64,000 bases of DNA from Methylocystis silviterrae (lineage in GTDB: Bacteria; Pseudomonadota; Alphaproteobacteria; Rhizobiales; Beijerinckiaceae): NCBI RefSeq assembly GCF_013350005.1, contig NZ_JABVWW010000003.1:1-64000 (forward strand), read 5' to 3'. Position numbers and translations under genes: made by a program. The notes under the pieces are model-generated. The model was given only the letters and a program-made list of their open reading frames with translations. It searched no databases and was not told the origin of the DNA. This document shows positions 37,447-61,535 of the stretch, piece after piece (position 1 is the stretch's first letter; the number at the start of each line of letters is the position of its first letter).

Positions 37447-37575
37447 GGCGGCTGGCAAGCGCCTTTCCGGCGATTGAAAATCGACTAGCCGCTCTCGCGC
37501 GAAAATTCTCATCGAGACGCGCCTCGAACTCTCCTAACTTATTGGAATTAAATCAATTTCAATCAGCCAGCGCGC

Positions 37576-37592
37576 TTGGCCCGGACCTTGCT
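37576..37592 (+). promoter_or_regulatory. Sigma-54 (-24/-12) promoter for hupSLCD
   Basis: TTGGCCCGGACCTTGCT: GG at 37578-37579 and GC at 37590-37591 separated by ten bases; differs from TTGGCACG-N4-TTGCW at one core position. Transcription would start near 37604, about 60 bases before hupS. The AT-rich tract at 37535-37570 could hold an IHF site but no good consensus match was found. Likely activated by HoxA. Confidence 0.78.
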
Positions 37593-37662
37593 CACCCTTT
37601 GAAAACAAAGCGCGACGCGAGATCGCGACGAAGGGACGAAGACGCCATCAGGAGGAGCGGGA

Positions 37663-38745
37663 ATGGCCGCAATCGAGACTTTTTACGACGTCATTCGCCG
37701 ACAGGGAGTGACGCGCAGAAGCTTCACGAAATTTTGCAGCCTGACCGCCGCCAGTCTCGGCATGGGTCCGATCGGCGCCGCGAAGATCGCCAACGCGCTC
37801 GAAACCAAGGAGCGTACGCCCGTCATTTGGATGCATGGGCTCGAATGCACCTGCTGTTCGGAAAGCTTCATCCGCTCGGCGCATCCGCTGGTCAAAGACG
37901 TCGTTCTGTCGATGATCTCGCTCGATTACGACGATACGATCATGGCCGCCGCCGGCCATCAGGCAGAAGCGATCCTCCAAGAGACGAAAGAGAAATACAA
38001 AGGCAAATATATTCTCGCCGTCGAGGGCAATCCGCCGCTCAATGAAGGCGGCATGTTCTGCATCGACGGCGGCAAGCCTTTCGTCGAAAAGTTGAAATGG
38101 ATGGCGGAGGACGCCATGGCGATCATCGCCTGGGGCGCCTGCGCCTCTTGGGGTTGCGTGCAGGCGGCGAAACCCAATCCGACGCAGGCGACGCCGATCG
38201 ACAAAGTCATCCACGACAAGCCGATCATCAAGGTGCCGGGGTGCCCGCCGATCGCCGAGGTCATGACCGGCGTCGTTACTTATATTACGACCTTCGGCAG
38301 ATTGCCCGAACTCGACCGGCAAGGCCGGCCGAACATGTTCTATTCGCAGCGCATCCATGACAAATGCTACCGCCGTCCGCATTTCGACGCCGGCCAGTTC
38401 GTCGAGCAATGGGACGACGAAAGCGCCCGCAAAGGCCATTGCCTCTATAAAATGGGCTGCAAGGGGCCGACGACCTATAACGCCTGTTCGACGGTGCGCT
38501 GGAACGGCGGCGTGTCTTTCCCCATCCAGTCGGGCCATGGCTGCATTGGCTGTTCGGAAGACGGCTTCTGGGACAAGGGGCCCTTCTATGAACGGTTGAC
38601 CAATATACATCAATTCGGCGTCGAGAAGAACGCGGATGAGATTGGGCTTGCGGCTGCCGGCGTCGTCGGCGCGGCGGTCGTGACGCATGCAGCGGCGACC
38701 GCGGTTAAGCGTATCGTCTCGAAGAACAACGATCATTCGGCCTGA
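37663..38745 (+). CDS. hupS: Oxygen-tolerant uptake [NiFe]-hydrogenase small subunit
   Basis: Carries electrons from the active site to cytochrome b. Residues 18-23 RRSFTK form the Tat export motif and the mature protein starts near residue 46. Cysteines 62, 64, 65, 160, 165 and 194 match the six-cysteine proximal cluster of Ralstonia MBH (17, 19, 20, 115, 120, 149), including the two extra ones that convey oxygen tolerance (group 1d). Distal and medial ligands lie around 232-297. A C-terminal hydrophobic helix (residues ~327-348) anchors it on the periplasmic side. AGGAGG precedes ATG 37663. Confidence 0.95.
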
Positions 38746-38768
38746 CGCCGCTCTCCAGGACAATAGCC

Positions 38769-40640
38769 ATGACGCAGCAGCGCATCTCGCAAAATCGCGC
38801 GGACCAAGTAGCTCAAGCAGCCGCGCCCGCCGTCGCCGCAACGGCTTCCGCCGGAGTCGACACGCCCAACGGCTTCAGGCTCGACAACAGCGGCAAGCGC
38901 GTCGTCGTCGATCCCGTGACGCGCATCGAAGGCCATTTGCGCGTCGAAGTGAATGTCGACTCCGACAATGTCATCCGCAATGCGGTCTCGACCGGAACGA
39001 TGTGGCGCGGCATCGAAGTGATCCTGAAGAATCGCGACCCGCGCGACGCCTGGGCCTTCACCGAGCGGATTTGCGGCGTTTGCACCGGCACCCATGCGCT
39101 CACCTCGGTGCGCGCAGTTGAAGACGCGCTCGGGATCGCCATCCCGGAGAACGCCAATTCGATCCGCAATCTCATGCAGCTCGCACTGCAGGTGCACGAT
39201 CACATCGTGCATTTCTATCACCTTCATGCGCTCGACTGGGTCGATGTGGTTTCGGCGCTGAGCGCCGATCCGAAGGCCACTTCCGCTCTCGCGCAATCGA
39301 TTTCGAGCTGGCCGCTGTCCTCCCCCGGCTATTACAAGGACTTGCAAACGCGCCTGAAAAAGTTTGTCGAGTCCGGCCAGCTCGGTCCCTTCAAGAACGG
39401 CTATTGGGGCAGCAAGGCCTATCGGCTGCCGCCCGAAGCCAATCTGATGGCTGTCGCGCATTATCTCGAGGCGCTCGACTTCCAAAAGGAGATCGTGAAA
39501 ATCCATACGATCTTCGGCGGCAAGAATCCGCATCCCAATTGGCTCGTCGGCGGCGTTCCATGCGCGATCAATATTGACGGAATCGGCGCGGTCGGCGCGA
39601 TCAATATGGAGCGTCTAAACCTTGTCGACGGCATCATCGATCAACTGATCGAATTCAACGACAAGGTCTATATCCCCGACATCATGGCCATCGGCTCCTT
39701 CTATAAGGACTGGCTCTATGGCGGCGGCCTCTCCGGCAAATCCGTGCTTGCCTATGGAGACGTGCCGGAACACGCCAACGACTATACGGACAAGAACCTG
39801 CTCTTGCCGCGCGGCGCGATCATCAACGGCAAGCTCGACGAGATCCATCCCGTCGATCATCGCGATCCAGAGGAGATACAGGAGTTTGTGACGCACTCCT
39901 GGTATAAATACGGCGACGAAACCAAGGGCCTGCATCCCTGGGACGGCGTCACCGAGCCGCACTACGAACTCGGACCGAACGCCAAAGGCACGAAAACCAA
40001 TATCATCGAGCTCGACGAAGGCGGCAAATATTCCTGGATCAAGGCGCCGCGCTGGCGCGGTCACGCAATGGAAGTCGGCCCGCTGGCGCGCTGGGTGGTC
40101 GGCTATGCGCAGGGCAAGCCGCAATTCAAGGAGCCGGTCGAGAAAGTGCTGCACGATCTCGGGCTGCCCACTTCCGCGCTCTTCTCGACGCTTGGCCGCA
40201 CGGCGGCGCGCGCGCTCGAGAGCCAGTGGGCCGGCTATCAGATGCGGCATTTCTTCGACAAGCTGATCGCCAATATCAAGGCCGGCGATCTTGCGACCGC
40301 CAATGTCGAGAAGTGGGAGCCCAAAAGCTGGCCCAAAGAAACAAAGGGCGTCGGCTTCACCGAGGCGCCGCGCGGCGCGCTGGCGCATTGGATCAAGATC
40401 AAGGACGGCAAGATCGACAATTACCAATGCGTCGTGCCGACCACATGGAACGGCTCGCCGCGCGATCCCGCCGGCAATATCGGCGCCTTCGAGGCTTCGC
40501 TGATGAACACGCCGATGGTCGATCCCGCGCAGCCGCTCGAAATCCTGCGCACGATCCACTCCTTCGATCCCTGTCTCGCCTGTTCGACGCATGTGATGAG
40601 CGAGGACGGACAAGAGATGGCGAAGGTGCAGGTGCGCTAA
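38769..40640 (+). CDS. hupL: Uptake [NiFe]-hydrogenase large subunit
   Basis: Bears the NiFe centre that oxidises H2. The nickel ligands are in RICGVC (Cys102, Cys105) and DPCLAC (Cys602, Cys605). HupD should cut after His608, releasing the 15-residue tail starting VMSEDG. It carries about 35 extra Ala/Gln-rich residues before the conserved [23 protein letters not shown]. The rest tracks HoxG of membrane-bound group 1d enzymes closely. It has no signal of its own and is exported with HupS. 623 residues. Confidence 0.95.
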
Positions 40641-40651
40641 AGGAGGGGTTC

Positions 40652-41371
40652 ATGACCGACATTTCGCGCATCGATGTCGCCGATTCTCATGGCGAGAGGG
40701 TCGTGTCGCAGCCGACCGTCTATGTCTATGAGGCGCCGGTGCGGCTCTGGCATTGGCTCAACGCCCTCGCCATCTTGGTTCTGATCGTCACCGGCTATCT
40801 GATCGGCTCTCCCTTGCCGACCGTCGCCGGCGAGGCGTCGCAGCATTTCGTCATGGGCTACATCCGCTTCGCCCATTTCACCGCGGGCCAGATCATGGCC
40901 GTCGGCTTTCTGCTGCGCGGCTATTGGGCTTTCATGGGCAACGAGCATTCGCGGCAGATCTATTATGTGCCGGTTTGGCGCGCCTCCTTCTGGAAAGAAC
41001 TCGCGCATGAAATCCGCTGGTACGCCTTCCTTGAAAAGGCGCCCAAGAAATATGTCGGCCATAATCCGTTGGCGCAGACGGCGATGTTCGCCATGTATAC
41101 GCTAATGTCGGCGTTCATGATCGTCACGGGCTTCGCGCTCTATTCGGAAGGAGAAGGCGCCGACAGTTGGGAGGCGAAGCTCTTCGGCTGGGTCTTCTAT
41201 ATCTGGCCCAACAGCCAGGAAGTGCACACTTGGCATCACCTCGGCATGTATGTGATCGTCACTTTCATCATCATCCACATCTACGCGGCCGTGCGCGAAG
41301 ACATCATGTCGCGCCAGAGCATCATCTCGTCGATGGTCTCGGGCGAACGTCATTTCAAGGATGGAGCCTGA
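40652..41371 (+). CDS. hupC: Hydrogenase cytochrome b subunit
   Basis: Di-heme membrane cytochrome that anchors HupSL and passes electrons to quinone. 239 residues with four hydrophobic segments. Heme-ligand histidines are seen in RLWHWLNALAI (helix 1), MGYIRFAHFTAGQIM (helix 2) and the final pair TWHHLGMYVIVTFIIIHIYAAVRED (helix 4). AGGAGGGG lies before ATG 40652, 11 bases after the hupL stop. Same family as HoxZ/HyaC. Confidence 0.94.
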   Translation: MTDISRIDVADSHGERVVSQPTVYVYEAPVRLWHWLNALAILVLIVTGYLIGSPLPTVAGEASQHFVMGYIRFAHFTAGQIMAVGFLLRGYWAFMGNEHSRQIYYVPVWRASFWKELAHEIRWYAFLEKAPKKYVGHNPLAQTAMFAMYTLMSAFMIVTGFALYSEGEGADSWEAKLFGWVFYIWPNSQEVHTWHHLGMYVIVTFIIIHIYAAVREDIMSRQSIISSMVSGERHFKDGA

Positions 41372-41374
41372 TCT

Positions 41375-41965
41375 GTGACGCGGCGCGTTCTCATCCTTGG
41401 CATCGGCAACATCCTTTGGGGAGATGAAGGTTTTGGCGTGCGCGCGGTAGAGGCGTTTCACCGTCGCTACGCCCTTCCGGAACACGTCACAGTTCTCGAC
41501 GGCGGAACGCAAGGGCTTTATCTCGTGCAATTTGTCCGCGAAGCCGATGACCTTCTGGTTTTCGACGCGATCGATTACGGCCTTGCGCCCGGAACGCTGA
41601 AGATCGTGCGTGACGGCGAAGTGCCGAAATTCACCGGTTCAAAAAAGATGAGCCTGCATCAGACCGGCTTTCAGGAAGTGCTGAGCGCCGCCGATCTCCT
41701 TGGCGATTATCCTTCGCGCCTCGCGCTCGTCGGCTGCCAGCCGCTCGATCTCGAAAACTGGGGCGGTCCGCTCACCGAGCCGGTGCGCGGCGCGATCGAC
41801 GCCGCTGTCACGGCGGCGCATGACATCCTGCTGGAATGGGGCGTCGATTGCGTCCGGCGCGCCGAACCGCTGTCGCCGGAACTGGCGCTGTTAAAGCATG
41901 ACATCGATCATCAGAGCTATGAGAGCCGGAGAGGCGTCAACGCTGCCGGCGAATGGAGGGATTGA
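41375..41965 (+). CDS. hupD: Hydrogenase maturation endopeptidase
   Basis: Nickel-dependent protease that removes the C-terminal peptide of HupL. GTG start three bases after hupC. LGIGNILWGDEGFG contains Glu18; Asp64 (VFDAIDYG) and His95 (MSLHQTG) complete the metal-sensing triad at the spacing known from HyaD (16, 62, 93). VGCQPLDLENWGGPLTEPV is typical of the family. 196 residues with a polar tail. Confidence 0.94.
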   Translation: MTRRVLILGIGNILWGDEGFGVRAVEAFHRRYALPEHVTVLDGGTQGLYLVQFVREADDLLVFDAIDYGLAPGTLKIVRDGEVPKFTGSKKMSLHQTGFQEVLSAADLLGDYPSRLALVGCQPLDLENWGGPLTEPVRGAIDAAVTAAHDILLEWGVDCVRRAEPLSPELALLKHDIDHQSYESRRGVNAAGEWRD

Positions 41966-41966
41966 C

Positions 41967-42194
41967 ATGAGCTTCCTGCGAATGATCCTCGTCGCGGCGG
42001 CGCTCGCGCCTGTCATGGCGGAGGCGCATCCGGGCGCGCATCCATATGGGCTCGCCGAGAGCCTCACGCATATCGCCACCCAGTCTGATCACCTTCTCGC
42101 GCTTGCCGTCGCTTTCGGCTGGATTTCCATCGTCGCGACGGGCGCGCTTGGCGTCGCCTATGCGAGCCGCAAGGCTTTGCGCGCGCACGACTGA
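41967..42194 (+). CDS. Small HupE-like membrane protein (75 residues)
   Basis: Starts one base after the hupD stop, in the place hupE holds in Rhizobium hup clusters. A signal peptide (MSFLRMILVAAALAPVMAEA) is followed by HPGAHPYGLAESLTHIATQSDHLLALAVAFGWISI. The DHLLALAVAFGW segment resembles the DHxLAMxAVGLW first-helix signature of HupE/UreJ nickel permeases. The remaining helices are missing, leaving two hydrophobic segments at most. Either a truncated hupE or a genuine mini-protein that assists nickel entry or hydrogenase assembly. Too short for confident family assignment. Confidence 0.65.
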   Translation: MSFLRMILVAAALAPVMAEAHPGAHPYGLAESLTHIATQSDHLLALAVAFGWISIVATGALGVAYASRKALRAHD

Positions 42195-42216
42195 AGCATC
42201 GGACGGACGGATTCCC

Positions 42217-42582
42217 ATGTGCCTTGGCGTTCCGATGCGCGTGATCGACGGCGACGACATGTCGGCGCTCTGCGAAGGCGCCGGCCGCACCGAGCGCATT
42301 TCCATGCTGCTTATCGGCGCGCAGCCTCCCGGCGCGCATGTGCTCGTTCATCTCGGCACGGCGATGCGCGTGCTTGAGGAAGAAGAAGCCGCTCTGATCA
42401 CGGCCGCGCTCAAAGGCCTTGACGCGGCGCTCGCCGGACGGACCTTCGAAGCGCATTTCGCCGATCTTATCGACCGCGAGCCGCAATTGCCCGCCCATCT
42501 GGTGCGGTCCGACGAACCCGATCGTGATGTTCCAGCACCGAAACAACCCGTATCAGAATCATCGTCCACGCAGGCGAGTTAA
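42217..42582 (+). CDS. hupF: HupF (HypC-family hydrogenase chaperone)
   Basis: Begins MCLGVPMRVIDGDD, the HypC/HupF signature with functional Cys2, and continues GAHVLVHLGTAMRVLEEEEA. At 121 residues it is longer than HypC, with a C-terminal extension ending in a polar SESSSTQAS tail, as typical for HupF. It protects or stabilises HupL during maturation, particularly in air. Last gene of the hydrogenase block. Confidence 0.88.
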   Translation: MCLGVPMRVIDGDDMSALCEGAGRTERISMLLIGAQPPGAHVLVHLGTAMRVLEEEEAALITAALKGLDAALAGRTFEAHFADLIDREPQLPAHLVRSDEPDRDVPAPKQPVSESSSTQAS

Positions 42583-42676: not shown

Positions 42677-43636
42677 TTACACCTTCCGAAACTGGCTCGA
42701 TCCGCATTTTGACAGCGCCTTCCACCAGGGAATTTGATTCTGCGCAATGTGCAGACCTGCTGCCTCACTAACAAGTCCACCATGCGCATAAAGCACGATC
42801 GGGAGGGTCTTGCCGGCAGGTAGCGAGTGAAGCATGGCAGGCAAATGGTGCGAAAAGATGCGCGTCACCTGTTCCGCCGAACTCGAATAGGCGCCGCCAG
42901 CGGCGAATCTGCCATTCCAAATGTTAATCACATGCGGCTGCAGAATGTCGGGATCCAATTCTCCACCCCGCATAGCGCTGTCGCGTCGCGCCAGCTTGCA
43001 GCAGTTAGGTTCATGCAAATGTATATGCGCATCAGTCTGCGGGGCCGCTCCGAGCCAGTCGCGCAAAGCCGTGCGACTTGGACCTGACTGGCTGCGGCGC
43101 GCGCGGGGTAGCGCAGTTCCTCGGAAGGCGCGGACAGCGACGACAATCTCCGGATAGGAAATTCCAGATCCCGGGCAGGTCTTGGATATGCCCAGCATAT
43201 TGTGGAATTGCACGGACTCCGGCGCTAGCTCGAACCGGTCCTGAACTAGCGCAATGACACGTAGCGTCGCTTCTCGTTGAACCCCGTCGAACTTTTCCTT
43301 CCCATCGTCGAAGTCGCCAACGACGCTCACCATGAACGGTCCTGCCTTAGCATCACCGTTGCGCCCGCTCGCCGAAGCGGGCGGCGCATCCCAATGGCGG
43401 CCCGTCCAGATCATGCCTTCGGGGTCGATCGTGATGTGCTGCGCGATATCGGACCAGCCCTTCTCTTCCGTGTCGCGCCGCCACATCTCTTCGATCGAGG
43501 CGCGCCCTTCGAAGGCCGCATGATTCGGCCCCCATGTATGATGCATATGCACTTCGATGATGGAGCGACGCCGGTTTGGAAACCAGTCGTCGAGGAGCCG
43601 CTTGAACTCATGAATATCGATTCGATGGAATGGCAT
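42677..43636 (-). CDS. Amidase/PGRP-domain protein, probably C-terminally truncated
   Basis: The N-terminal half resembles an N-acetylmuramoyl-L-alanine amidase type 2/PGRP fold: EVHMHHTWGPNH, DIAQHITIDPEGMIWTGRHW, FMVSVVGDFDDG and FHNMLGISKTCPGSGISY, with candidate zinc ligands His33, the later FHN His and Cys. The C-terminal part shows TLPIVLYAHGGLVSEAAGL, like the start of an alpha/beta-hydrolase-type domain, but the frame ends 30 residues later (SSQFRKV). Substrate unknown. No signal peptide. It converges with hupF and may be unrelated to either neighbour. Confidence 0.6.
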   Translation of the reverse strand: MPFHRIDIHEFKRLLDDWFPNRRRSIIEVHMHHTWGPNHAAFEGRASIEEMWRRDTEEKGWSDIAQHITIDPEGMIWTGRHWDAPPASASGRNGDAKAGPFMVSVVGDFDDGKEKFDGVQREATLRVIALVQDRFELAPESVQFHNMLGISKTCPGSGISYPEIVVAVRAFRGTALPRARRSQSGPSRTALRDWLGAAPQTDAHIHLHEPNCCKLARRDSAMRGGELDPDILQPHVINIWNGRFAAGGAYSSSAEQVTRIFSHHLPAMLHSLPAGKTLPIVLYAHGGLVSEAAGLHIAQNQIPWWKALSKCGSSQFRKV

Positions 43637-43653: not shown

Positions 43654-44886
43654 TCAATGACGCGCCGCACCGGCGCCCAACTCGATCCTGTTCGTTTCAA
43701 CGACGCCCGAGAGGCGATACTGCCGATAATCGATCTTTCGCCATCCAGGCGGCGCAAGGACGGCGGTATCCAGCGCCTGCATGAATCGACTACGCGTAAG
43801 GCGTCTCCCGGCTCTGATGAGTCCATCAACAAGAACGAGCGCGCCAGCATCGGCAAAGCGCTGTGCATCGCTAAGCACTCTTATCTCGACCGTTGTATCC
43901 TCGCTGGAAGCGGGGCGAATATCGATGAGGGTCGCGCCCGCCTGACGCGCCTTGATTTCGTCGAGGCGCCCCGCGACGACATCCAACGGCGCGATGAGAT
44001 GTTCATCTTCAACGAGCGATGGAACGCCGCCGAGCGCAATCCGGCATTTTCGTGCCATGGACGGCCCGGGTTTAAGCTCCCGCTTCATCGCCGCAAAAAG
44101 CGAAGGCGCGCGGCGGGCGTCGTCATCGTCGATCGATACAGAACCGCATCCCGCCGCCGCCGCGCCGAGCGCCTGCCCGAGCGCCGTAAAATCCGGGGTG
44201 AGGCCACGATTGCGATCGGCGTCTTCATCTCCCTCGAACGGATGGCGGGGGAACAGATTCAGCAGTCCGCTTTTCGTGAGGGGGGCTTCGATCTCGCGTT
44301 GGGCCGCCGTCAAGCCGACAATTGCGAAAAGTGACGACGCCCTCTCGCGCAAGTCCGCTTCATTCACGGGCTCGACCAGAATGCGTCGACCAAAAATTTG
44401 TCCGCCTTCGCTCCATCTCATAACGGCCGCGGCGAAGAGCGCGGGAAGCGCGTCATCCGTACGCGCCACGAATACGCCAATGCGAATACCTTCCTGCTCA
44501 ACTCCGGCGCTGTCTTCGGCGCGCACGGAGCCAAGAAACCCCAGAAGCTCATCCGCAAGCTGCGCGTCGATTACGATGCGCGGCATGACGCGATCGATAT
44601 TGCGTCCGTCGGGCGTGCGCCCGTCCGCGAGAAGACGCGCCAACGCGCCGCCATCATATCCGGACGCGCCCGCACGATCAGTCAGACTTTCCATGTCGAG
44701 CGCCGGCGCCTGCAGGCCTCCCTCCCGCCGACCGCCGCCATCAAGCCCATGGCAGCCTGCACAAGGCTGCGTGTGGCCTCCGCCGGGAAGCTCGCCGCGC
44801 AGGAAGAGCGCGCGCGCATAGCTCGCGCAGGCTTGCGACGCCCAAAGACAGACACAAAGCAGTATTGCTACGCTCGGAGCTTTCAT
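43654..44886 (-). CDS. Cytochrome c domain fused to periplasmic-binding-protein-like domain
   Basis: Secreted protein. A signal peptide (about residues 1-21) is followed by a small class-I cytochrome c domain: heme motif CAGCH at 42-46, with M101 in DRVMPR a possible axial ligand. From about residue 132 (GIRIGVFVARTDD) it has the pattern of a type-I periplasmic binding protein of the branched-chain amino acid kind, but the body is short and divergent (to 410). A heme domain on a ligand-binding domain suggests a redox partner or sensor for the oxidase encoded upstream. Overlaps the SCO gene by four bases. Confidence 0.72.
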   Translation of the reverse strand: MKAPSVAILLCVCLWASQACASYARALFLRGELPGGGHTQPCAGCHGLDGGGRREGGLQAPALDMESLTDRAGASGYDGGALARLLADGRTPDGRNIDRVMPRIVIDAQLADELLGFLGSVRAEDSAGVEQEGIRIGVFVARTDDALPALFAAAVMRWSEGGQIFGRRILVEPVNEADLRERASSLFAIVGLTAAQREIEAPLTKSGLLNLFPRHPFEGDEDADRNRGLTPDFTALGQALGAAAAGCGSVSIDDDDARRAPSLFAAMKRELKPGPSMARKCRIALGGVPSLVEDEHLIAPLDVVAGRLDEIKARQAGATLIDIRPASSEDTTVEIRVLSDAQRFADAGALVLVDGLIRAGRRLTRSRFMQALDTAVLAPPGWRKIDYRQYRLSGVVETNRIELGAGAARH

Positions 44887-45416
44887 GACGTGAGACGTTT
44901 GATAAGCGCGACAATCTCGCGCGCGTCCGGCTGGCCGTTCAAGCGGAACAGCTGTCCATGCACGGCGAGGAAGATGACTGTCGGATGCTCGTCGAGCGCG
45001 CCAAAGCGGACATCGAGCCGGTCGAGCAATGCGTCAACCGCTTCGCGGTCGCCTGTCAGGAACCGCCAGCGCGCGCTTGCGCCAGTCTGTGCGGCATGGT
45101 GCGCCAGGCGCTCTACAGTGTCGCGCAATGGATCAAGCGTCAGGGTCAGGAGCCGCGCGTGCGGCGCAAGCTGCGTATCGAGGAAGTGCATCTCTGCTTC
45201 AGTGACGGGACAAGCCGCCTTGCAGCCCTGGAAAAAGAAGCTGAGCACGGCGACGCCGTCAGGCGCCATCAACTCCTGCCCGAGGTCCACGTGGCGACCA
45301 AGTTGGTCCGACAGTTCGACCGATGGCAATGTGACGTGAAAAGATTGAAACGCCGATGCGCCCGCTGCTAAAAAAACGAAGAGCGATGTGGCGGCAATAC
45401 GCTGCAAGGCCATCAT
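44883..45416 (-). CDS. SCO1/SenC-type copper chaperone
   Basis: Thioredoxin-fold protein with N-terminal signal (MMALQRIAATSLFVFLAAGASAF). The copper motif C-x3-C is in FFFQGCKAACP, and a candidate third ligand His lies in LDEHPTVIFL. 177 residues. SCO proteins deliver copper to CuA sites or similar centres, or keep cysteines reduced. Here the partner is likely the giant multicopper oxidase of the same operon, not a terminal oxidase. ATG 45416 overlaps the stop of the upstream gene (ATGA). The long upstream extension of the frame is a shadow of that gene. Confidence 0.82.
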   Translation of the reverse strand: MMALQRIAATSLFVFLAAGASAFQSFHVTLPSVELSDQLGRHVDLGQELMAPDGVAVLSFFFQGCKAACPVTEAEMHFLDTQLAPHARLLTLTLDPLRDTVERLAHHAAQTGASARWRFLTGDREAVDALLDRLDVRFGALDEHPTVIFLAVHGQLFRLNGQPDAREIVALIKRLTS

Positions 45417-47185
45417 GGCGCCGACTCCACCAGCTTTGGCGACGTCTTCATGCCGTCGCCATAGATAGCATAAAGCGCGAGAGGCCCTGGGCCCGCGCGA
45501 CGAAGAACCACATGATGTCTCCCGTCCGCAATCGTCACCGGCGCCTCGGCGCGCCATGGAGAGAGAAGACCCTGCGCGATCAACGCATGCGCAGCCGCCC
45601 CCTCCGATTCGAGCGTGAAGTCGACTTCCAAGCCTTGCGCAGTCCGACGCAGAACTTCGATATTGAGGCCGATTTCCTGGGAAACCTGCGCCTGTGACGC
45701 GTCTACCGCGCTTGGCCGCACGGCAATATCGCGGCAAAGCAGCGGGCTCCTGGCGTCGTCAAAGATGAGGAGCCGATGCGGTCCGCCGCGCGCAAAGGTC
45801 ACCAGCGCCTCATACTGTCCGGGCGCCGTCTCGCGGAGGCCACGCGGCACGGCAAGAAGGCGCACGGGCGGGTCGCCCTTGAGATTGACCGAGTGTAGCG
45901 AGGCGCTGTCGTGGACTCCGGCGTCAGCAAGGAACAGGACGGCGTCGCGCGAGGGCGAAACGATCAGAAGCGTCTCGCTATCGGGAGCATGCGCCACGAG
46001 CCCCCGATCCGCTTCACCCGACGCGCCGTCTTGCGGACCGAGCGGAATTCGGCGCACCATCGGCTCTTGTCCCTTGCGAATGCTGTCGCGCGCAATGAGC
46101 GCCGCGGTTCTGCGGCCCTCGAGAATCATTGCGATCGAATGCTCCGTGAAGCTGAGGTCTTCGAGCGCGACGCCAAACGCAATGGCCTGGACCATCTGGC
46201 CGAGCGCCAGATCGATGATGCTCGCCTTCCCCTCGCGGCGGAGCGCCGCGATCGCATAGCGGCCATCGGGCGTCAGCGTCAGCATGTCGGCTCGATTAGC
46301 GAGCGCGATCTTTTGGGCGGGCGCGCCATCAAAATAGCGCAGCATCGCGACTGGCGCGGTTCTGTCCAGCTCAAGTACAGCATTTGCGAGCGGCGAATAG
46401 GCGATCTTGCTCGCGGTCTCGAATGGCGCCGTAGCGACGACGCGCCCTCGCGCATTGACGAGAGCAATCGTTTGCGCGCCCTCAAACAGCAGCGCGTTGT
46501 CTTGCGTCGCCCGTACGTCGTGCGCCTCGAAACTCAGTGCAATGCGCTGAACCTTGTCGTTGCGCAGGAGTAATGCTGCGCTATCGCGCGTTACGACGCC
46601 AACGCCATCCGGCGTCGGCGCGATCGCGCGTGGCGCGGAAACGCCATCAACGGGCGCCACGACGCCCGAGGCGACGTCGATCCGGGCGAGAATGTCGCGC
46701 TTCGGCAGGATCGCGTGGAGTGCGCCTCGCGCGTTTACGACGAGGTCGGACGGCGCTTCCTTCAGGTCGATGATGCGTAGAATGTTGCTCGTCGCGAGCG
46801 AAATTTGCGGATCGACAACGCTGATATGCCCCTCTTTTGAGAGCAGCGCAAGAAACTGCCCGTCGAGCGCGATATCGCCGCGCGCGAGAGCGCCCGTCGC
46901 GCGGAGCGCCCGCGCCGTTTCGGCGCAATCGCCGCCGACTCCGTCCGTCGGCCTCAGCAATCCGCGTGGTTGCTGCAGGCTCTGCGGACGGTCCAGCAAC
47001 GCGTTGCGGAACGCCGCCTTGAGTAGCAGCGGCGTGCCGGAGACGGCCTCGCTTTCCCGTCCGGTCGTGGGATCGATAAAGGTCGTTTCGAGGACGATCG
47101 GCGTCACCAGCTCTTCGGTCCGAGCCAAGTCGACGGCGCCGATAATCAGTGCGAAGACGCCTGCTGCCGCTCCGAACCGGGACAT
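45413..47185 (-). CDS. Secreted protein, possible beta-propeller, oxidase-operon partner
   Basis: 590 residues with a signal-like N-terminus (MSRFGAAAGVFALIIGAVDLART). Through about residues 100-440 short repeats of the form 'hydrophobic strand - D/E/N turn' recur (FLALLSKEGHISVVDPQ, RIDVASGVVAPVDG, ADMLTLTPDGRYAIAALRREGKASIIDLALGQ). This suggests a YVTN/WD-type propeller, although no single motif is strict. The C-terminal part is a beta-rich region with no named family. It sits between the giant oxidase (40-base overlap) and the SCO chaperone (four-base overlap), so all are probably made together. Function unassigned; could bind substrate or tether the oxidase. Confidence 0.6.
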   Translation of the reverse strand: MSRFGAAAGVFALIIGAVDLARTEELVTPIVLETTFIDPTTGRESEAVSGTPLLLKAAFRNALLDRPQSLQQPRGLLRPTDGVGGDCAETARALRATGALARGDIALDGQFLALLSKEGHISVVDPQISLATSNILRIIDLKEAPSDLVVNARGALHAILPKRDILARIDVASGVVAPVDGVSAPRAIAPTPDGVGVVTRDSAALLLRNDKVQRIALSFEAHDVRATQDNALLFEGAQTIALVNARGRVVATAPFETASKIAYSPLANAVLELDRTAPVAMLRYFDGAPAQKIALANRADMLTLTPDGRYAIAALRREGKASIIDLALGQMVQAIAFGVALEDLSFTEHSIAMILEGRRTAALIARDSIRKGQEPMVRRIPLGPQDGASGEADRGLVAHAPDSETLLIVSPSRDAVLFLADAGVHDSASLHSVNLKGDPPVRLLAVPRGLRETAPGQYEALVTFARGGPHRLLIFDDARSPLLCRDIAVRPSAVDASQAQVSQEIGLNIEVLRRTAQGLEVDFTLESEGAAAHALIAQGLLSPWRAEAPVTIADGRHHVVLRRAGPGPLALYAIYGDGMKTSPKLVESAP

Positions 47186-50100
47186 GCGCCCTCGCCATTT
47201 TCATCTGTTACTTCGAGGAGTCCCCACGCGCCATGGCCAGCCATCAGGCGCGGACCGTCGTGCCAGAAATGGCATCCCGGTCCGAGCGGGCGACGCAGCG
47301 CGGCGGTGATCGCCTTGCCAGGCGCGAGCAGCGCCGCGTTCGGGAACCCGAACCCCGGGAAAAGATCGTCAAAGCCGTTGCCCGTGATGATGAAGGCGCG
47401 CTGACGCGCCCGCCCGCCGGGATGGACGACACGAAACATGACTTCCTCCCCGGCCCTTGCGCTCAGAACGATCGGCGTGCGCTCCGCGCCTTTGCCCTTC
47501 ACATGGAAAATATCCGCGCCAAGTTCGACGGCGTTGGCGTCGGCGGCGCCATTCAGCACGCCCTGTGTATAGGGCGCTTCGCCTCTAAGATTCTTTCGGG
47601 CGAAGATTGGCGTCGATCGATAGTTCACGCCCTTCTTGCCGAAATCGTATGTGTCATCGCAGATGTGGCAGTCCGCGACAGGCATGTCTCCGCTCGAATT
47701 CTCGGCGTGAAGGTTGAGCCCATCCTGCCAAAGTAACACATGCTCGCTCAACGCGGCCTCAGGGGGCGGCACATGCTCCCCGGCATTGTCGAACCCCTGC
47801 TTCAGCGTGATCGACGCGCTCCCTTTCATCTGCGACGGGACCAGCGTGACGGCTTGACCAGGCTCCGCCTGCTGCGCTGGCTTGCCATCGACGCAAACGC
47901 CAGGCTGATTGCGTCCGGCGTAGCAGGCGCCCTGCGGCTCGACGATGAGCGCGCCCGCGAGGCCATGCGGCAGCTGGTTGAAAACATCGCCAAGCGGCCG
48001 GATCGGCAGCGCGCCGAAAGCGTAAGGTTGAAATCCCTTTTTCTGCATTTCAAATTTCGCAATCGTGTCGCTGATGCATTGGGCCAGGGCTTGATGATGC
48101 GCAGCGTCAGGAAGCGCGTCGCCATTCATGGAGAGGGCGAACCAACGTCCCAGAACGTCTATGATGAAGGCATTTTGCTCATTCTTGCCGGGGTCATACT
48201 TTGTGAGACGCGCCGATTGCAGTCCCTCTGCATCGCAGAACGGTTGGGCAAATTGCCGTGCGAGATCGTCAAAATAATTTTGTTGCGACTCATCCTTGGG
48301 GCTTAGCACGCCGGCATAGAAGAACATGCGCGCCGCTTTGTCCGGCGTCACGCTCCCGCCCGCGTCAACGCCGACCGGGCTGGGCGTCGTGCTCATATTT
48401 GATGTTGCGGTGAGGGGAATGGACAGCGCCAGATGGCTCGACGGCCGCGCATTCCGCGCCGCCGGTTCATTTCCCGCAAGAAATTCGCCTGTCTCGACAT
48501 TCCATCCGTCATGCGTATCGACGTTGAGCGGCGTGATCTTCGGCATGAGAGCGTCGCCCGGTTTGTCTTCGCCATTCTTATCGAGCGCGTTGACCAAGGT
48601 GAGATCCAGGCAGTCGCCGGCGTTTATGCGCAGCACGAGCGGCTGGATCGCCGACGTCGGGAGCGCGCCCGAAAAATTCTGGCTCGCAGAGAGCGAGTCC
48701 TTGACCTTTTGGATGACGCTCTTCCGACTTGCGGCAGGCGCGGCGAGACTTGCCGCCGGCCAAATTTCGGCGTTCTGCTCCGAGTCGATGAGCACCAGCA
48801 GGCGACCATTGGGGTCACGCAGAACCGGCGCCTGCGGATGATAGACGACGCCTTTGGCGTTCAGCGCCGTCGCCTCCACGGCCGCCACGGTCGCCCGCAC
48901 ATGCGGCGCGCCGGGCAGACAGGTCACGCCGAATTTAGGCGTCGGACGCCTCGCGGGCAAAGACGGTGCAAGCGTCGTTTCTTCGGCTCCCGGCGGCGGC
49001 ATATTCCGCGCATCCTCCGTTCCCAGGATCGCACGCGCGGTCGTGAGCGACGTGAGCCGCTGAGACGCAGGCCTCAACTTGCTTCCAGGCGCCTGCGGAT
49101 TGGCCTTGATGCAGTTCAGCGCCTTACTGGGGTCGTCGCTCGGCGCGTCGAGGCATGCGCCGATGTCATAGGCGACGCGCGGCCGTTTCGACTCTTCATA
49201 CACGCGCAGAAGTCCCCATGCGCCGTTCCAGATCGCATCAAGCGTGCCGAAATGATAGAGGAAGTCCGATGCCGTCATGCGATTGGCGAAAACCGGATCG
49301 GCCATCAGATCTTTGAGCGGCGCGGCGCGCGTGACCTTGCCTCGTGGCGCGGCCCGCGCAAGCGATTCAACCACCGGCAACGCCGCCTGCATAACCCCTT
49401 CCCGGCGCATCGGCGCTTCGAATTCGAAGTGCTCCGAGATGCCGATCTCCTGCCCCGTCTCACGACCATCGACATTGTCGCACGCCGCTACCAGTGAAGC
49501 CCGCGCGGACCTGTCGGCGCCCGCCAGCGCCACCGTGGCGTCATGACACCGGCGCCACCATGTCGGATTCGCCTCCGCTTCCTGGTTCTGCGACGTGAAA
49601 TCACGATGCGACACAAAGTGCTGATCGAGATTACGGGGGAAGGTCACGCCTTCGAGCGTGAAGACGTGCTGAACCTCCTGTGCGCCTTGAATGAGACGGA
49701 TCTGAATATTTTCATTCTCGTAGACGTCAAGGATCGGCGTGCAAGGATCGCCATGGGTCTGCCCGGCTTGCGTTCCGGTGAGCATGATGCTGCGGAAAGT
49801 CTCGCCGAAGTCGCCCATGTCGTCCATCCGCTGAGCGGCGACGCTACGATCCTCTTCCTTGCGATCACCCGCTGCGGCAAAGCCACAGGGTCCGTAACCC
49901 AACCCTTCGTTCTCATGTCCGGCGCGCGCGCCGACACGCAGCGGCACAGGCTCATTGCGATAATTCACGAGGTAAGGATCGTGATGGTCGACTGAAATCG
50001 ACTCTGGACGTTCGGGCGCGGCGATCGGCCGGCCATGGATGCGCCGCTGATCCAGAGCTGCGCTGCGCATCTGCGCCGCGACGCTCTGCGCTTCGTCGGA

Positions 50101-53100
50101 CGTGTAGTGCGTATGCAGAACGGGTGACGCCGAAACGCCGTCCGCGCCGCCGCCATTGTGTCCGCTGCAGATGGAAGCAAGACTCAGTTTGCCGCTGTCA
50201 TAGGCCGCTTTGTCCCTGGCGTAAGCTTCGGCCTCCTTCGCGAGACAGACAAGGCCCTTTGCGGGAGTCGCCTCCCGATACTGGATCTCGGCTTTCGGCG
50301 CTTTTGGATCGTAGAGCAGCGCGAAGTCGGCAATCGCCAGCGCATATTCGCGCGTATCGGCGACATGAGGTTTGCGGTCTGGATCGCCTCGCTCGAGCAC
50401 GAGCTTGCGCGGTCCGACGAGCTTTTCATCCCCGATGCGGAGCTTTATGCCGGCGTCCTCTTTCGCCAGCCTGTCACAATCCTCCTTATTCGTCACATGC
50501 TCGGGGCAGATGCTTGCATGTGTCGGCTCTATGACGAGCGCCGAGTAGAAGCCGTGCTGCTGGATCGATGACGGACCGAAGTGATCATGCGTGAAGACTG
50601 TTCGCATGGTGCGGTCCGTCGGCTTCGCGCCAACAATCTCCTCAGACAGGATCGGATCCGCGAACCAGCGTTGGACCGTAGTCTGGAACCATCCCGGCTG
50701 GCCGCCGGCGCCAAGACGTGGCGTTTTCCAGTGATCCTTCCTGCCGCAGACTCGACCGCGCAGCTGGGTCGATCCTCCTGTTACAGAGCCGCCATGAGAC
50801 GGCTGGCTCGCACAGATGCGTTCGGAGATTTCGTCAGGCGCAAAGGTGCCGTCTTCATAGTTCCAGCCATTGGCCGAGCCGTCGGAAGACGTCACGTCGA
50901 ATTTTACGAGATGAATGTGCTGCCCGACAGTGTCGGTCGGCGTTTCGACCTGAAAGTCATCTCGCGCCAAAGTCTTGGGCATTTCATTGGTGTGGCGCAG
51001 CTCGATGCATTCGCCCGAGCGCGCCCGGAAGAAGAAGGGCGCCGCGTCTGCGCGGATCTTGTTTTTGTAATCTCCGGCCTCGCTGCTCAACACATCGATG
51101 CGCGCCTGCGGATCGTGCCAGCCAGCGCGATTGACGATCATCTTCTGCAACTGGACCGCGGACACATCATAGCGACGGAAGCCGATCATCTTGGGATCGG
51201 GCGTGAACTCGACGCCATCGTTGGTGAGCGGGTCCGATTTCGCCGTGCCCGCGTTTAGCCCATCGGCGATTGCGCAAGGGTCGGCAAAGGGCGCGCCCGG
51301 ACGTGGTGGAGCGCCATTTACGTAGAACCAACCCGGAGCCGCGGCGCCGCCAGCAGCAGTGGCCGTCGCCGCGGAGATTGTGACCGTTGAATACCCGCCT
51401 TTGTCTTTGTCGAATTGCGCCGGCGATCCGTCGATCTGGCGCAGCAGCAGCGGCTTCGTCTCGCCCGACGCGCCGGCGAGAAGCCCATTATGATGAAAAG
51501 CCATGCCGCGCTTTTCAACGTCGGAGCCGTCATATGGCAGAATATTGAGATGCAACTTCGTGTAATCCGCCGAGAGATCGCCGATGGCGAGCGAGCGGGC
51601 GAGAAGCGCATTAACATTTTGCGCGCCATCAATAATCGGCGCGGCGCCCGCCGCGAATTCGCGCTCGCCGTCCTTCACGACATGACGCGGCAGGCCCGCA
51701 TCCAACGGCTTGCCATTATCCAGCGCCATGTCGAGCGGCGGCTGCGGCGCACGGTGGCCCGGCTTACCGTCGATGTAGAAAGGATAGCCTGGCATGCCCT
51801 TGTCGCCATAGGTCGGTAGCAACGGCAGCGGTTCCTCCGGCAGCGGCACAAGCGCAGGTATCGGCGTGCCTTCGGCGTTCGCCAAATTCGAACCATCCGG
51901 CAAGGTGCCCGCGCGCGTCTTGTGTTCATCGTCCGACGCGGTCGGATTTATCGACAGTCCCGGGCTCTTCTGTCCGTCCGGCAGTTTGCGCGAGCCGTCC
52001 TCGAAAACATCATGCGTGCGCCAGAGCTCCCACATGCCCTGCGCGAAATGCGGATAGAGATGGCAATGGAAAATCGAGTCGCCCGGCGCGCGATTGCGAT
52101 TACCGGCGCCATGCGTCTCCCACCATCCCCCCGGCCCTTGATCGCGCAGGCCGCCATGATAGATGCGGTAGGTGAAGCCCTGCTGTGGCCCCACCGTCTG
52201 ACTGTCGAGATAGGCGCCGCGTCCGGAATCATTGCCCGCGAACCACTGGTGCGCATGCAGGTGGAAGACATGCGTCTCCTTGGGGCCTGCGTGGAAATTT
52301 CGGAAAACGACGCGGTCATTCAGATAGGAGTGATGGACATTCGACGGATCGTCCGGGAACTGTTCGAGCAGCGCCGGATCGCCATTCGCCCATGACTGCA
52401 GGAAGAATTCTTCGTAGAGGCATTCCACGCAATCGGCGGCCGGCCCCATTTTCTTGCGGTTGGCGATGAGCATGGGGCCCATGCCGCCAGAGCCATAATT
52501 GACTCCGAACCCGTCACGTACGCCAGCGAGCTGCTTGAACTGCGCATCGGCGCCGCCGAGCATTCGGTAGGCTTCCGCGTAGTAGGTCTTCATCTCATCA
52601 TGGAGCACGACGGTAAATTCGCGGAAGGCGGAGAAGCGCCCACGATCCTTGGCGGGCTCGCGCACGATTGCGTTCAGATCGCTATGCGCAAGGCGATAAC
52701 GCGCTTCGCCGTCCTTGCTCTCCTCCGCGCTCAGCATGTTGAGATAGGGGAAACCGGCTCCGTCTTTCGCTTCGTAGTCGAGTTTGCCCTTGCGCGCATG
52801 CGGCTCGGTCGCGCCTTCCTTTGGCCAGGCGGCTTCAAGAACGCCGTGCGAGACCTGACTCCTGTACCACGCGCTGCCTTTGGGCTCTGCGATGACGGAT
52901 GCGAAAAGTCCGTGCGTAAGCGAGCCGCCGTCGCCTTCCCCGCCGGACATCGCCGCATTCGACGTTGCAAAGAAGGGCCCCTCGTGATTGATCTCAAATC
53001 GACAAACGACAATACGTCCGCCTGGCGGCAGCGCCGAGACGCCGAGACAGATGTCGCGGTCGAATCCATCGGTCTGCTTGGCCGCAAGCTTGAGACCCGC

Positions 53101-53739
53101 AACGGCGAAATTTGCCAATCGCGTTTTCGGCCAATCCTTATCGATCTCAGGCTTGGTCGGCTCGCCGCCAGCTTCTTCCTTCTTCGCCTTGCAATGCTGC
53201 CGGGCGGACGACTGGCCATTTGGAAATTCGTCTTTCCATACGGCGTCGTTCAAATTGTCTTTACCGGCAGGCGGCTCGCGGAAAGAGTTCGGACAGAAGT
53301 CCTTCGTAAGTCCCGGCTGCAGCGGCCTGAGAAGATTTTGAAAATGGACCTCGAGCGTGTCGCCGACGTTGACCCTCAACGCCAAAGGACGCGGGCGTTT
53401 GCAGTCGCGCAGCCGAACCGCTCCGGGCTCGAGCGCAGCGCCAATCGCGCGGGAATTCGTTTCGGCTTCGGGTTTTTCGCAGTCTGAGGCGGACGTGTAC
53501 GCGACAGCCGTGTCGACCGGCACGACATCTTCGCGTAGCGCGTAGATCATCCCGAAGGGATTGAACGACCCAAAACGGTTGTAGACGAGCAGCTGGTCGA
53601 GCGCGACAACATTTGCGATGATCAGAGCGCCATCGCGTCCTGCGAGCGGTGAGGGCTCTTTGGCCGGCAAAGGCTTCGAAATAGCCCAAAGGATCACGCC
53701 ACTGAAAAGAATGGCGCTCAGCAAAAATATCTTTTTCAT
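47146..53739 (-). CDS. Giant secreted multicopper-oxidase-like protein (~2,197 residues)
   Basis: Signal peptide MKKIFLLSAILFSGVILWA; ATG 53739 is chosen because AGGA lies nine bases before it and only one base before ATG 53748. Copper motifs appear in unusual order. First comes H490-x2-H493-x-H495 (HVFHLHAH), then H558-C559-H560-x3-H564-x4-M569, the type 1 and trinuclear ligands normally at the C-terminus. Later come H941-x-H943 and H1051-x-H1053, ligands normally at the N-terminus. A degenerate third set ends near C2156-x3-H2160 and M2166. HG-x6-EP modules recur at 276, 1062 and 1925. Closest known type is the very large MnxG/McoA-like metal oxidase group (by architecture, not database search). 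Probably oxidises metal ions or organics outside the membrane. Confidence 0.8.
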   Translation of the reverse strand: MKKIFLLSAILFSGVILWAISKPLPAKEPSPLAGRDGALIIANVVALDQLLVYNRFGSFNPFGMIYALREDVVPVDTAVAYTSASDCEKPEAETNSRAIGAALEPGAVRLRDCKRPRPLALRVNVGDTLEVHFQNLLRPLQPGLTKDFCPNSFREPPAGKDNLNDAVWKDEFPNGQSSARQHCKAKKEEAGGEPTKPEIDKDWPKTRLANFAVAGLKLAAKQTDGFDRDICLGVSALPPGGRIVVCRFEINHEGPFFATSNAAMSGGEGDGGSLTHGLFASVIAEPKGSAWYRSQVSHGVLEAAWPKEGATEPHARKGKLDYEAKDGAGFPYLNMLSAEESKDGEARYRLAHSDLNAIVREPAKDRGRFSAFREFTVVLHDEMKTYYAEAYRMLGGADAQFKQLAGVRDGFGVNYGSGGMGPMLIANRKKMGPAADCVECLYEEFFLQSWANGDPALLEQFPDDPSNVHHSYLNDRVVFRNFHAGPKETHVFHLHAHQWFAGNDSGRGAYLDSQTVGPQQGFTYRIYHGGLRDQGPGGWWETHGAGNRNRAPGDSIFHCHLYPHFAQGMWELWRTHDVFEDGSRKLPDGQKSPGLSINPTASDDEHKTRAGTLPDGSNLANAEGTPIPALVPLPEEPLPLLPTYGDKGMPGYPFYIDGKPGHRAPQPPLDMALDNGKPLDAGLPRHVVKDGEREFAAGAAPIIDGAQNVNALLARSLAIGDLSADYTKLHLNILPYDGSDVEKRGMAFHHNGLLAGASGETKPLLLRQIDGSPAQFDKDKGGYSTVTISAATATAAGGAAAPGWFYVNGAPPRPGAPFADPCAIADGLNAGTAKSDPLTNDGVEFTPDPKMIGFRRYDVSAVQLQKMIVNRAGWHDPQARIDVLSSEAGDYKNKIRADAAPFFFRARSGECIELRHTNEMPKTLARDDFQVETPTDTVGQHIHLVKFDVTSSDGSANGWNYEDGTFAPDEISERICASQPSHGGSVTGGSTQLRGRVCGRKDHWKTPRLGAGGQPGWFQTTVQRWFADPILSEEIVGAKPTDRTMRTVFTHDHFGPSSIQQHGFYSALVIEPTHASICPEHVTNKEDCDRLAKEDAGIKLRIGDEKLVGPRKLVLERGDPDRKPHVADTREYALAIADFALLYDPKAPKAEIQYREATPAKGLVCLAKEAEAYARDKAAYDSGKLSLASICSGHNGGGADGVSASPVLHTHYTSDEAQSVAAQMRSAALDQRRIHGRPIAAPERPESISVDHHDPYLVNYRNEPVPLRVGARAGHENEGLGYGPCGFAAAGDRKEEDRSVAAQRMDDMGDFGETFRSIMLTGTQAGQTHGDPCTPILDVYENENIQIRLIQGAQEVQHVFTLEGVTFPRNLDQHFVSHRDFTSQNQEAEANPTWWRRCHDATVALAGADRSARASLVAACDNVDGRETGQEIGISEHFEFEAPMRREGVMQAALPVVESLARAAPRGKVTRAAPLKDLMADPVFANRMTASDFLYHFGTLDAIWNGAWGLLRVYEESKRPRVAYDIGACLDAPSDDPSKALNCIKANPQAPGSKLRPASQRLTSLTTARAILGTEDARNMPPPGAEETTLAPSLPARRPTPKFGVTCLPGAPHVRATVAAVEATALNAKGVVYHPQAPVLRDPNGRLLVLIDSEQNAEIWPAASLAAPAASRKSVIQKVKDSLSASQNFSGALPTSAIQPLVLRINAGDCLDLTLVNALDKNGEDKPGDALMPKITPLNVDTHDGWNVETGEFLAGNEPAARNARPSSHLALSIPLTATSNMSTTPSPVGVDAGGSVTPDKAARMFFYAGVLSPKDESQQNYFDDLARQFAQPFCDAEGLQSARLTKYDPGKNEQNAFIIDVLGRWFALSMNGDALPDAAHHQALAQCISDTIAKFEMQKKGFQPYAFGALPIRPLGDVFNQLPHGLAGALIVEPQGACYAGRNQPGVCVDGKPAQQAEPGQAVTLVPSQMKGSASITLKQGFDNAGEHVPPPEAALSEHVLLWQDGLNLHAENSSGDMPVADCHICDDTYDFGKKGVNYRSTPIFARKNLRGEAPYTQGVLNGAADANAVELGADIFHVKGKGAERTPIVLSARAGEEVMFRVVHPGGRARQRAFIITGNGFDDLFPGFGFPNAALLAPGKAITAALRRPLGPGCHFWHDGPRLMAGHGAWGLLEVTDENGEGACPGSERQQASSH

Positions 53740-53748
53740 CGCAGTCAT

Positions 53749-60377: not shown

Positions 60378-61535
60378 GTGGCGTTCGCCGGAAAAGCTCT
60401 ACTCGCCGGAGTCGGGGTCGCCCTCGTTCTAGCTTTGGCCCTCCTGTTCTTCGCTTGGTCGGGTCTCTACAACGTTGCAGCCAGCCAGCCTCATTGGGCG
60501 CTCACGCGCTGGTTCCTGGACTTTGGTTTGCGGCGTTCCGTCGAGACGCACAGCGCCTCCATCACGCCGCCGACGCTCGATGATAAAAATCTGGTGATCC
60601 TCGGCGCGGGCCATTTCGACGGAGGCTGCGCGCCTTGCCATGGCGCGCCGGGGGGGCACAGCGACCCGATCGTTGATCGCATGCTCCCGGCGCCGCCCGA
60701 ACTCAACCGCGCCGCATTCAACTGGTCGACAGAGCAGCTCTTCTGGATCGTCAAGCATGGCCTGAAGTATACTGGAATGCCGGCGTGGGTCGCGCAGCAG
60801 CGCGACGACGAAGTGTGGGCCGTTGTCGCTTTTCTGCGCGCCCTTCCGCAGATGAGCGCGAGCCAATATCGGCTGTTCGCCATCGGCGATCCCGAGGCGC
60901 GGCTGAATGATGGCGCTGAGATCGCCCGGAACGGCATGACGATGGAGGCGCTGACCCGATGCGTGCGCTGCCATCGTGGCGATGCGCAGCCCAGAAGCGC
61001 GCTCGTGCCCCGCCTCGCCGGGCAATCACAGGCCTATGTCGAACGCGCGCTGCGCGATTTCGCCAGCGGTTCGAGGCCGAGCGGCATCATGGAGCCGATC
61101 GCCGTGGCGCTGGACGATGCTGCGATCGCGGCGCTGAGTGAATATTACGCGCGCGCGTCGGACCCGGCGCCGAGCGCGACGCCGATAGCGCCGAACGCTG
61201 ATCAGATTGCGCGCGGCAAAGAAATCGCGACCAAAGGCGTCGCGGAATCGGGCGTCCCGCCCTGTCTGGTTTGCCATGGCGACACACGCGCGCCGTCCTT
61301 TCCCAAGCTCGACGGCCAATACGCGCCCTATATCGTCGGCCAGATCGAAATCTGGAAACGCGGACTGCGCAAGAAGTCGGGATATGGAGCGATCATGGGG
61401 ACGATCGCTTCGCGTCTGACCGACGAGCAGGCGCGAGACGTCGCCGCCTATTTCGCGAGCGTCGCGGCGCCAACCGCGGAAAAGCTGGAACGGCCCATCC
61501 CACCGTCTCGCCGTGGAGGCCCGCGTGCGCGATAG
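60378..61535 (+). CDS. Membrane-anchored three-heme cytochrome c
   Basis: An N-terminal signal/anchor helix (GVALVLALALLFFAWSG) is followed by three cytochrome c domains with heme motifs CAPCH (residues 84-88), CVRCH and CLVCH, each with a downstream Met candidate ligand (for example YTGMPAW). 385 residues. GTG start with weak ribosome site. It ends overlapping the oxidase subunit II gene by 23 bases, so both are likely co-expressed. It may carry electrons to that subunit. Confidence 0.85.
   Translation: MAFAGKALLAGVGVALVLALALLFFAWSGLYNVAASQPHWALTRWFLDFGLRRSVETHSASITPPTLDDKNLVILGAGHFDGGCAPCHGAPGGHSDPIVDRMLPAPPELNRAAFNWSTEQLFWIVKHGLKYTGMPAWVAQQRDDEVWAVVAFLRALPQMSASQYRLFAIGDPEARLNDGAEIARNGMTMEALTRCVRCHRGDAQPRSALVPRLAGQSQAYVERALRDFASGSRPSGIMEPIAVALDDAAIAALSEYYARASDPAPSATPIAPNADQIARGKEIATKGVAESGVPPCLVCHGDTRAPSFPKLDGQYAPYIVGQIEIWKRGLRKKSGYGAIMGTIASRLTDEQARDVAAYFASVAAPTAEKLERPIPPSRRGGPRAR

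Follow-up and report, generated by a model that had tools for sequence, protein, structure and literature searches.

Does the giant multicopper oxidase (MCO) encoded in Methylocystis silviterrae together with three smaller, likely exported proteins belong to a new periplasmic oxidation module, or is it part of a system that has already been described? The question is raised by four overlapping minus-strand genes in a 64,000-nucleotide stretch of the genome (positions 1 to 64,000 of contig NZ_JABVWW010000003.1, assembly GCF_013350005.1, forward strand), which was analyzed as a whole and is hereafter called the window. The genes encode, in order, the MCO, a beta-propeller protein, a SCO1/SenC copper chaperone, and a cytochrome c fused to a binding-protein domain, and the initial annotation of the stretch had taken them for a possibly undescribed system. 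They were located in open frames just as it had read them, with overlaps of 40, 4, and 4 bases, but the module is a relative of a described system and not a new one: the giant protein is a known kind of oxidase with a described accessory set, given its match to MnxG, the putative mnxG operon of Pseudomonas putida GB-1, for which the same four parts are tabulated in the same order (PMC11409713, Table 4), and the MofC-type clusters.

The oxidase and its three partners

The only NCBIfam model matched by the MCO was NF041487 (copper_ox_MnxG; E value 7.4e-174, 580.2 bits, in eight stretches), and its sole sequence match among solved structures was MnxG of PDB entry 9bxa (E 3.4e-60). These matches rule out a separate new oxidase family for the protein. 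Pfam returned only Cu-oxidase_2 (E 6.6e-4), whose 19.9 bits lie slightly under the cut-off of 20.4. The NF041487 search matched none of the control genomes (0/14), and no second giant MCO was found in the source genome, where the two other matches to the model are frames of 362–366 residues with 26–29 bits on a different contig.

For comparison, a protein-based scan of genome contigs gave 272 matching stretches, the best 80 of which are the loci considered here (numbered with L; whole genomes are numbered with G). The window MCO was aligned with those of the 77 of 80 loci whose open frame is no shorter than 1,500 residues. With residues counted from the ATG at 53748, H493, H496, H498, H561, C562, H563, H567, M572, H944, H946, H1054, and H1056 are identical in all 78 aligned proteins, and the same twelve are kept in three additional MCOs of the same genus. 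Following the standard MCO pattern, we read the twelve as the ligands of the type 1 copper, its axial methionine included, together with the eight trinuclear-center histidines, the first block presumably holding the type 1 copper and half of the trinuclear center, and the second block the other half. The residues at H944, H946, H1054, and H1056 are also those that align in Bacillus MnxG (9bxa); at the position of H567 that chain has an alanine, which counts against full identity with all MnxG proteins. Judged from its sequence, the MCO is a member of the wide MnxG/MofA-type family, with one predicted type 1 site and one predicted trinuclear site.

The propeller-like repeats recognized in the initial annotation are backed by the predicted structure of the second protein, which has no Pfam match of weight: its AlphaFold2 model is mostly beta (mean predicted local distance difference test score, pLDDT, 82.9), and the best Foldseek match was the YVTN propeller 1l0q (E 5.5e-14), with modest template-modeling (TM) scores of 0.37 by query and 0.52 by target. 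A relative of the protein was found in 75 of 94 loci scanned, the loci of the source genome included. The one from Pseudomonas (L065) matches the Cytochrom_D1, Lactonase, and YNCE-like propellers of Pfam, with FixH/YtkA at its C-terminal end, while Pfam scans of those from L007 and L026 were without any match.

The chaperone matches PF02630 (SCO1/SenC, E 1.8e-11), and the residues that likely form its copper site are kept in the aligned domain rows (C65 in 103/103, C69 in 101/103, H144 in 103/103), an alignment that took in only matched domains of about 131–171 residues. Its start was set at 45416, within an open frame that extends back to 45737. It is the single SCO frame of the entire window; three further SCO genes lie on other contigs of the source genome. 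Elsewhere, in L013, L014, L022, L033, L035, L037, and L063, the SCO model spans about 300–350 residues of one frame, versus about 148, as if two SCO domains had been fused.

That the fourth protein joins a heme domain to a ligand-binding domain, as initially proposed, is borne out by conservation, by Pfam matches of its relatives, and by its fold. C42, C45, and H46 of the CxxCH motif, and also M101, are invariant in 31/31 aligned fusion proteins. A Pfam scan of the window protein at E 0.01 gave no domain, but among the aligned members 27/31 match Cytochrom_C and 20/31 match Peripla_BP_6. In the model of the window protein (pLDDT 81.3), Foldseek related the second domain to branched-chain amino-acid-binding proteins and to the ligand-binding regions of glutamate receptors (best match 4kv7, E 3.8e-8), with TM-scores by query of 0.36–0.51 among the 50 matches listed.

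Export signals on all four products, which the initial annotation had also claimed, are likely, as judged by a crude Kyte-Doolittle scan: each product, taken in gene order, has a hydrophobic stretch near its N terminus (best 12-residue means 2.58, 2.53, 2.30, and 2.60), and hydropathy is weaker past residue 40 (best 19-residue means 1.29, 1.78, 1.26, and 1.30).

Distribution and phylogeny of the gene set

Conservation of the four genes together across taxa, which the initial annotation had singled out as a check on its proposal, was observed both in the loci and in whole genomes. All four parts occur in 55/80 loci, namely 26 of the 29 from Pseudomonas, a genus toward which the counts lean, and 29 of the 51 others; of the 62 loci whose sequence continues for 5.5 kb or more past the 3′ end of the MCO gene, 53 are complete. 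The incomplete ones among the 62 are L020, L023, L024, L032, L034, L036, L038, L043 (propeller only), and L049 (SCO only). Two of them, L032 and L036, are from the archaeal Methanoperedens and show an MCO and a propeller gene, with no SCO or fusion gene in the sequence at hand. The complete loci span Alpha-, Beta-, and Gammaproteobacteria, Acidobacteriota, Myxococcota, Nitrospirota, Bacteroidota, and others. The partner genes lie 3′ of the MCO gene in every complete locus but one (54 of the 55), the exception being L031, where they precede it on the opposite strand. The gene order is common to those 54; that of L026 looks swapped when it is taken from long stop-to-stop frames, but domain positions give the usual one. 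L037 has a second propeller frame further along.

In whole genomes, an MCO match was obtained in 4/37 of the genus (4/61 overall), 2/289 of a class sample, and 6/199 of a family sample, the samples overlapping; a family match in G406 was dropped as an MCO carrier (E 7.5e-4, 29% identity, 374-residue frame). The propeller, SCO, and fusion genes adjoin the MCO gene in all eight whole genomes that remained (G000, G023, G013, G021, G191, G420, G450, and G525). By themselves, the profiles of the fusion and propeller proteins match 181/289 and 137/289 class genomes, respectively. Among the matches listed, however, the N-terminal cytochrome part of the fusion is reached only in the two MCO-bearing genomes, the others starting at model position 73 or beyond, and only the same two span the whole propeller model. 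Because of these searches of 289 genomes, the binding-protein and propeller folds can be called common, whereas the versions encoded here track the oxidase.

A FastTree phylogeny with a midpoint root, built from MCOs other than MofA, McoA, OmpB, and MnxG members of known function, placed the window MCO in a clade with those of Methylobacterium, Paracoccus, Jannaschia, Aurantiacibacter, Roseomonas, and Belnapia (support 0.99–1.0). By the sequences sampled, the clade is mostly composed of Alphaproteobacteria; L040 (Paracraurococcus) and L027 (Rhodospirillales), likewise from Alphaproteobacteria, are placed outside it. In trimmed columns, the window MCO is 52–53% identical to the clade members L005, L007, and L008. 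The proteins of the clade are also long: in the 11 clade loci other than L026, the open frames have 1,915–2,477 residues, 10 of them at least 2,000 (the shortest, L012, is split), and 9 of the 11 exceed the range of the 29 Pseudomonas loci. The MCO of Pseudomonas monteilii (L065) scores 3894.9 bits on NF041487, above the cut-off of the model, and is encoded with the same gene set, including two SCO genes. A different MnxG-type cluster exists in G013 and G021 of the same genus as the window (loci L099 and L100). Its MCO is about 42% identical to that of the window in trimmed columns and groups in the tree with those of the gammaproteobacterial methanotrophs Methylomonas, Methyloglobulus, and Methylococcaceae, which suggests two separate gains of the cluster within one genus.

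Substrate and electron route

The explanation that we consider quite probable is that the cluster is a divergent version, belonging to an alphaproteobacterial clade, of the Pseudomonas mnxG operon, and that it probably oxidizes Mn(II) with O2. The substrate and the electron route of the module are inferred, as in the following scheme. At its type 1 copper the MCO would accept single electrons from Mn(II) and hand them on to the trinuclear center, where O2 would be reduced to water, so that Mn(II) would be oxidized outside the inner membrane and Mn(III)/Mn(IV) oxide left outside the cell. SCO would deliver copper to the exported MCO, and the propeller protein and the cytochrome c/binding-protein fusion might aid assembly, or might carry periplasmic electrons to or from the MCO. 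In P. putida GB-1, a double knockout of mnxG and mcoA formed no Mn oxide under the conditions tested, and MnxG is called the main oxidase in the excerpted text of PMC11930936. For the propeller, SCO, and fusion proteins, no tested role is reported in the excerpts of the mnxG-operon literature cited here, that on Pseudomonas included. Genes for cytochrome c maturation are reported to take part in Mn oxidation by P. putida MnB1 (PMC11409713, in excerpt), which fits a role for the fusion protein, without proving one.

Several observations weigh against Mn(II) oxidation by an mnxG-type operon in this host. The MCO stays below the curated equivalog cut-off of NF041487 (580.2 vs 3100 bits), which rules out strict membership of the MnxG equivalog, and in trimmed columns it is only 35% identical to its counterpart in Pseudomonas L065; because of these two values, the substrate could have changed. 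Neither a second SCO gene nor SurA was found adjoining the cluster, whose next downstream gene matched only Amidase_2 in Pfam; no MnxS/MnxR-like regulator was recognized directly adjacent to it; and 9 of the 62 loci with enough DNA are incomplete, every one of them lacking at least the cytochrome gene. Lastly, a literature search on Methylocystis with mnxG, multicopper oxidase, or manganese oxidation gave no devoted paper among the matches listed, which is weak evidence, and within the same scope no Mn(II) oxidation test was found for the strain or the genus; PMC12569786 contains “Methylocystis” and “mnxG” once each.

The divergence of the oxidase would also fit a different donor. If the window clade used the same scaffold on Fe(II), a phenol, or a copper(I) complex, Mn(II) would be a side substrate or no substrate at all. 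Other MCOs have a broad range of substrates, a well-supported path (0.99–1.0) separates the clade clearly from Pseudomonas MnxG, and the clade members tested, that of the window (580 bits) and that of L007 from Paracoccaceae (483.4 bits), remain under the 3100-bit cut-off. However, neither the copper blocks nor the gene set has changed, and the family members whose oxidase activity has been tested and published oxidize Mn(II), within the literature cited and as far as its excerpts go; a change of donor therefore appears unlikely to us, although it deserves some weight. Still less can be said for a chance gathering of unrelated exported proteins, to which we give practically no credence: it is ruled out by the occurrence of the four families together in 55/80 loci and 8/8 whole genomes, and the restriction of the complete propeller and of the cytochrome part of the fusion to two MCO genomes, among the matches listed for the 289 of the class, argues against it as well.

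A direct path from the module to the respiratory chain is possible. Electrons from an extracellular substrate would then reach the chain through the heme protein with conservation of energy, a scheme that is compatible with Mn(II) oxidation by an mnxG-type operon but that we regard as improbable. The set includes a c-type cytochrome in 55/80 loci, and genes for another cytochrome c and for cytochrome c oxidase subunit II lie at 60378–62523 on the plus strand, about 6.6 kb from the cluster. Moreover, the idea has been published for MofC, whose function as an electron carrier in Mn(II) oxidation is an older hypothesis (Brouwers 2000) repeated in the excerpted text of PMC5566968. On the other hand, the cytochrome gene is lacking in the 9/62 loci mentioned above, and a heme protein fused to a binding domain could serve in sensing, binding, or assembly just as well as in electron transfer. 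The Mn(II)/Mn(III) couple has a high potential for a donor to the bc1 complex, and the MCO retains the residues of its own O2-reducing center; because this copper center is apparently complete, the enzyme need not use the respiratory chain. Of the module drawn in the initial annotation, a copper oxidase accompanied by a copper chaperone and by a heme protein is supported; its dedicated respiratory route is no more than a possibility, and the idea of electron carriage by MofC was already in print.

The source genome has two matches to PF02461 (AMO; E 5.4e-108 and 1.1e-107), which we take to be the family that includes subunit A of particulate methane monooxygenase, and because of them the host is probably a methanotroph. 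One further proposal, more doubtful still than the respiratory route by itself, is that one methanotroph genus has two lineages of MnxG-type operon, that of the window clade and one like that of gammaproteobacterial methanotrophs, and that the fusion protein feeds electrons from Mn(II) or another donor into respiration; if true, it would tie methane oxidation and manganese cycling together within one cell. Apart from this proposal, the present analysis adds to the carriers of the mnxG-type set a probable methanotroph and a distinct clade made up mostly of Alphaproteobacteria, with three accessory proteins that travel with the oxidase across phyla. An MnxG-type oxidase is thereby often accompanied by a propeller and by a fusion of cytochrome c with an amino-acid-binding fold.

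Surroundings and known relatives

Table 1. Features of the mnxG-type cluster (positions in the window; aa, amino acids)
Feature	Position	Strand	Remarks
MnxG-type giant multicopper oxidase (MCO)	47146-53739	-	2,197 aa; 2,200 aa from in-frame ATG at 53748
MCO first copper-ligand block	52033-52272	-	H493, H496, H498, H561-C562-H563, H567, M572
MCO second copper-ligand block	50581-50919	-	H944, H946, H1054, H1056
Beta-propeller protein, likely export signal	45413-47185	-	590 aa; counterpart of YVTN beta-propeller gene in mnxG operon
SCO1/SenC copper chaperone	44883-45416	-	177 aa; C65, C69, H144 likely copper site
Fusion of cytochrome c and ABC-type (ATP-binding cassette) amino-acid-binding-protein domain	43654-44886	-	410 aa
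Heme c attachment motif CAGCH in fusion protein	44749-44763	-	C, C, H invariant in 31/31

The Amidase_2 gene (42677–43636, minus strand) begins 17 bases after the cluster. It was considered as a fifth part and ruled out, since relatives were found in only five scanned loci besides the window, L097 of the same genus and four from Paracoccus/Paracoccaceae. Part of the gene matches large frames that lie upstream of the MCO gene on the opposite strand in these four loci, and the DNA similarity to the sister genome G023 stops inside it. Beyond it, on the plus strand, is a hydrogenase region (32183–42582) with a sigma-54 response regulator, a histidine kinase, two sets of NiFe-hydrogenase subunits, cytochrome b561, HycI protease, and HypC; the regulator and kinase (32183–34994) adjoin the hydrogenase genes. 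The G+C content of the cluster (0.595–0.648 in 2-kb steps) is within the range of the remaining window (0.571–0.663) and does not stand out as foreign. In pattern scans for sigma-70 promoters, terminators, and sigma-54 promoters nothing exceeded shuffled sequence, and the window has no exact match to the sigma-54 consensus. Scans of the window with Rfam at the gathering threshold and for tRNAs gave no match.

Among described systems, Bacillus MnxG (9bxa) is homologous over the copper blocks, apart from the alanine noted above, and has 1,227 residues; its partner proteins are MnxE and MnxF. McoA of P. putida GB-1 resembles the window in that a Mn(II)-oxidizing MCO is followed by a SCO gene, but its putative operon, as tabulated, has no propeller and no cytochrome/binding-protein fusion (PMC11409713, Table 4). 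The mofABC cluster of Leptothrix discophora and the ompB/mofA clusters share with the window a large MCO, a MofC-like protein, and in some a putative copper chaperone (excerpts of PMC5566968 and PMC8218464); MofC-like proteins consist of cytochrome c and periplasmic binding domains and are encoded beside ompB/mofA-like genes, with a SCO gene in some (PMC5566968). The mof clusters carry mofB, a gene for a peptidyl-prolyl isomerase (PPIase), whereas no PPIase domain was detected in the neighboring window genes scanned with Pfam, two small upstream frames of which match no Pfam family at all; the likeness to mof is one of gene content.

The closest likeness is to Pseudomonas. The putative mnxG operon of GB-1 is listed with mnxG, a 40-residue YVTN beta-propeller, two SCO1/SenC genes, an ABC substrate-binding protein with a cytochrome c domain, and SurA (PMC11409713, Table 4), and according to the same source, in excerpt, it is conserved in two more Pseudomonas strains. 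A similar operon is predicted for Pseudomonas OF001, with a beta-propeller gene of the “lactonase family,” SCO, ABC, and SurA genes (PMC8218464, legend of Fig. 2). The window differs from GB-1 in that it has one SCO gene, then the Amidase_2 gene downstream, instead of two SCO genes and SurA, and its MCO of 2,197 residues is longer than the Pseudomonas frames of 1,943–2,017 residues. The Pseudomonas loci aligned here, GB-1 itself lying outside the alignment, nevertheless have the same copper ligands as the window, and the MCO, YVTN beta-propeller, SCO, and ABC/cytochrome c proteins of the GB-1 operon recur in the window in identical order.

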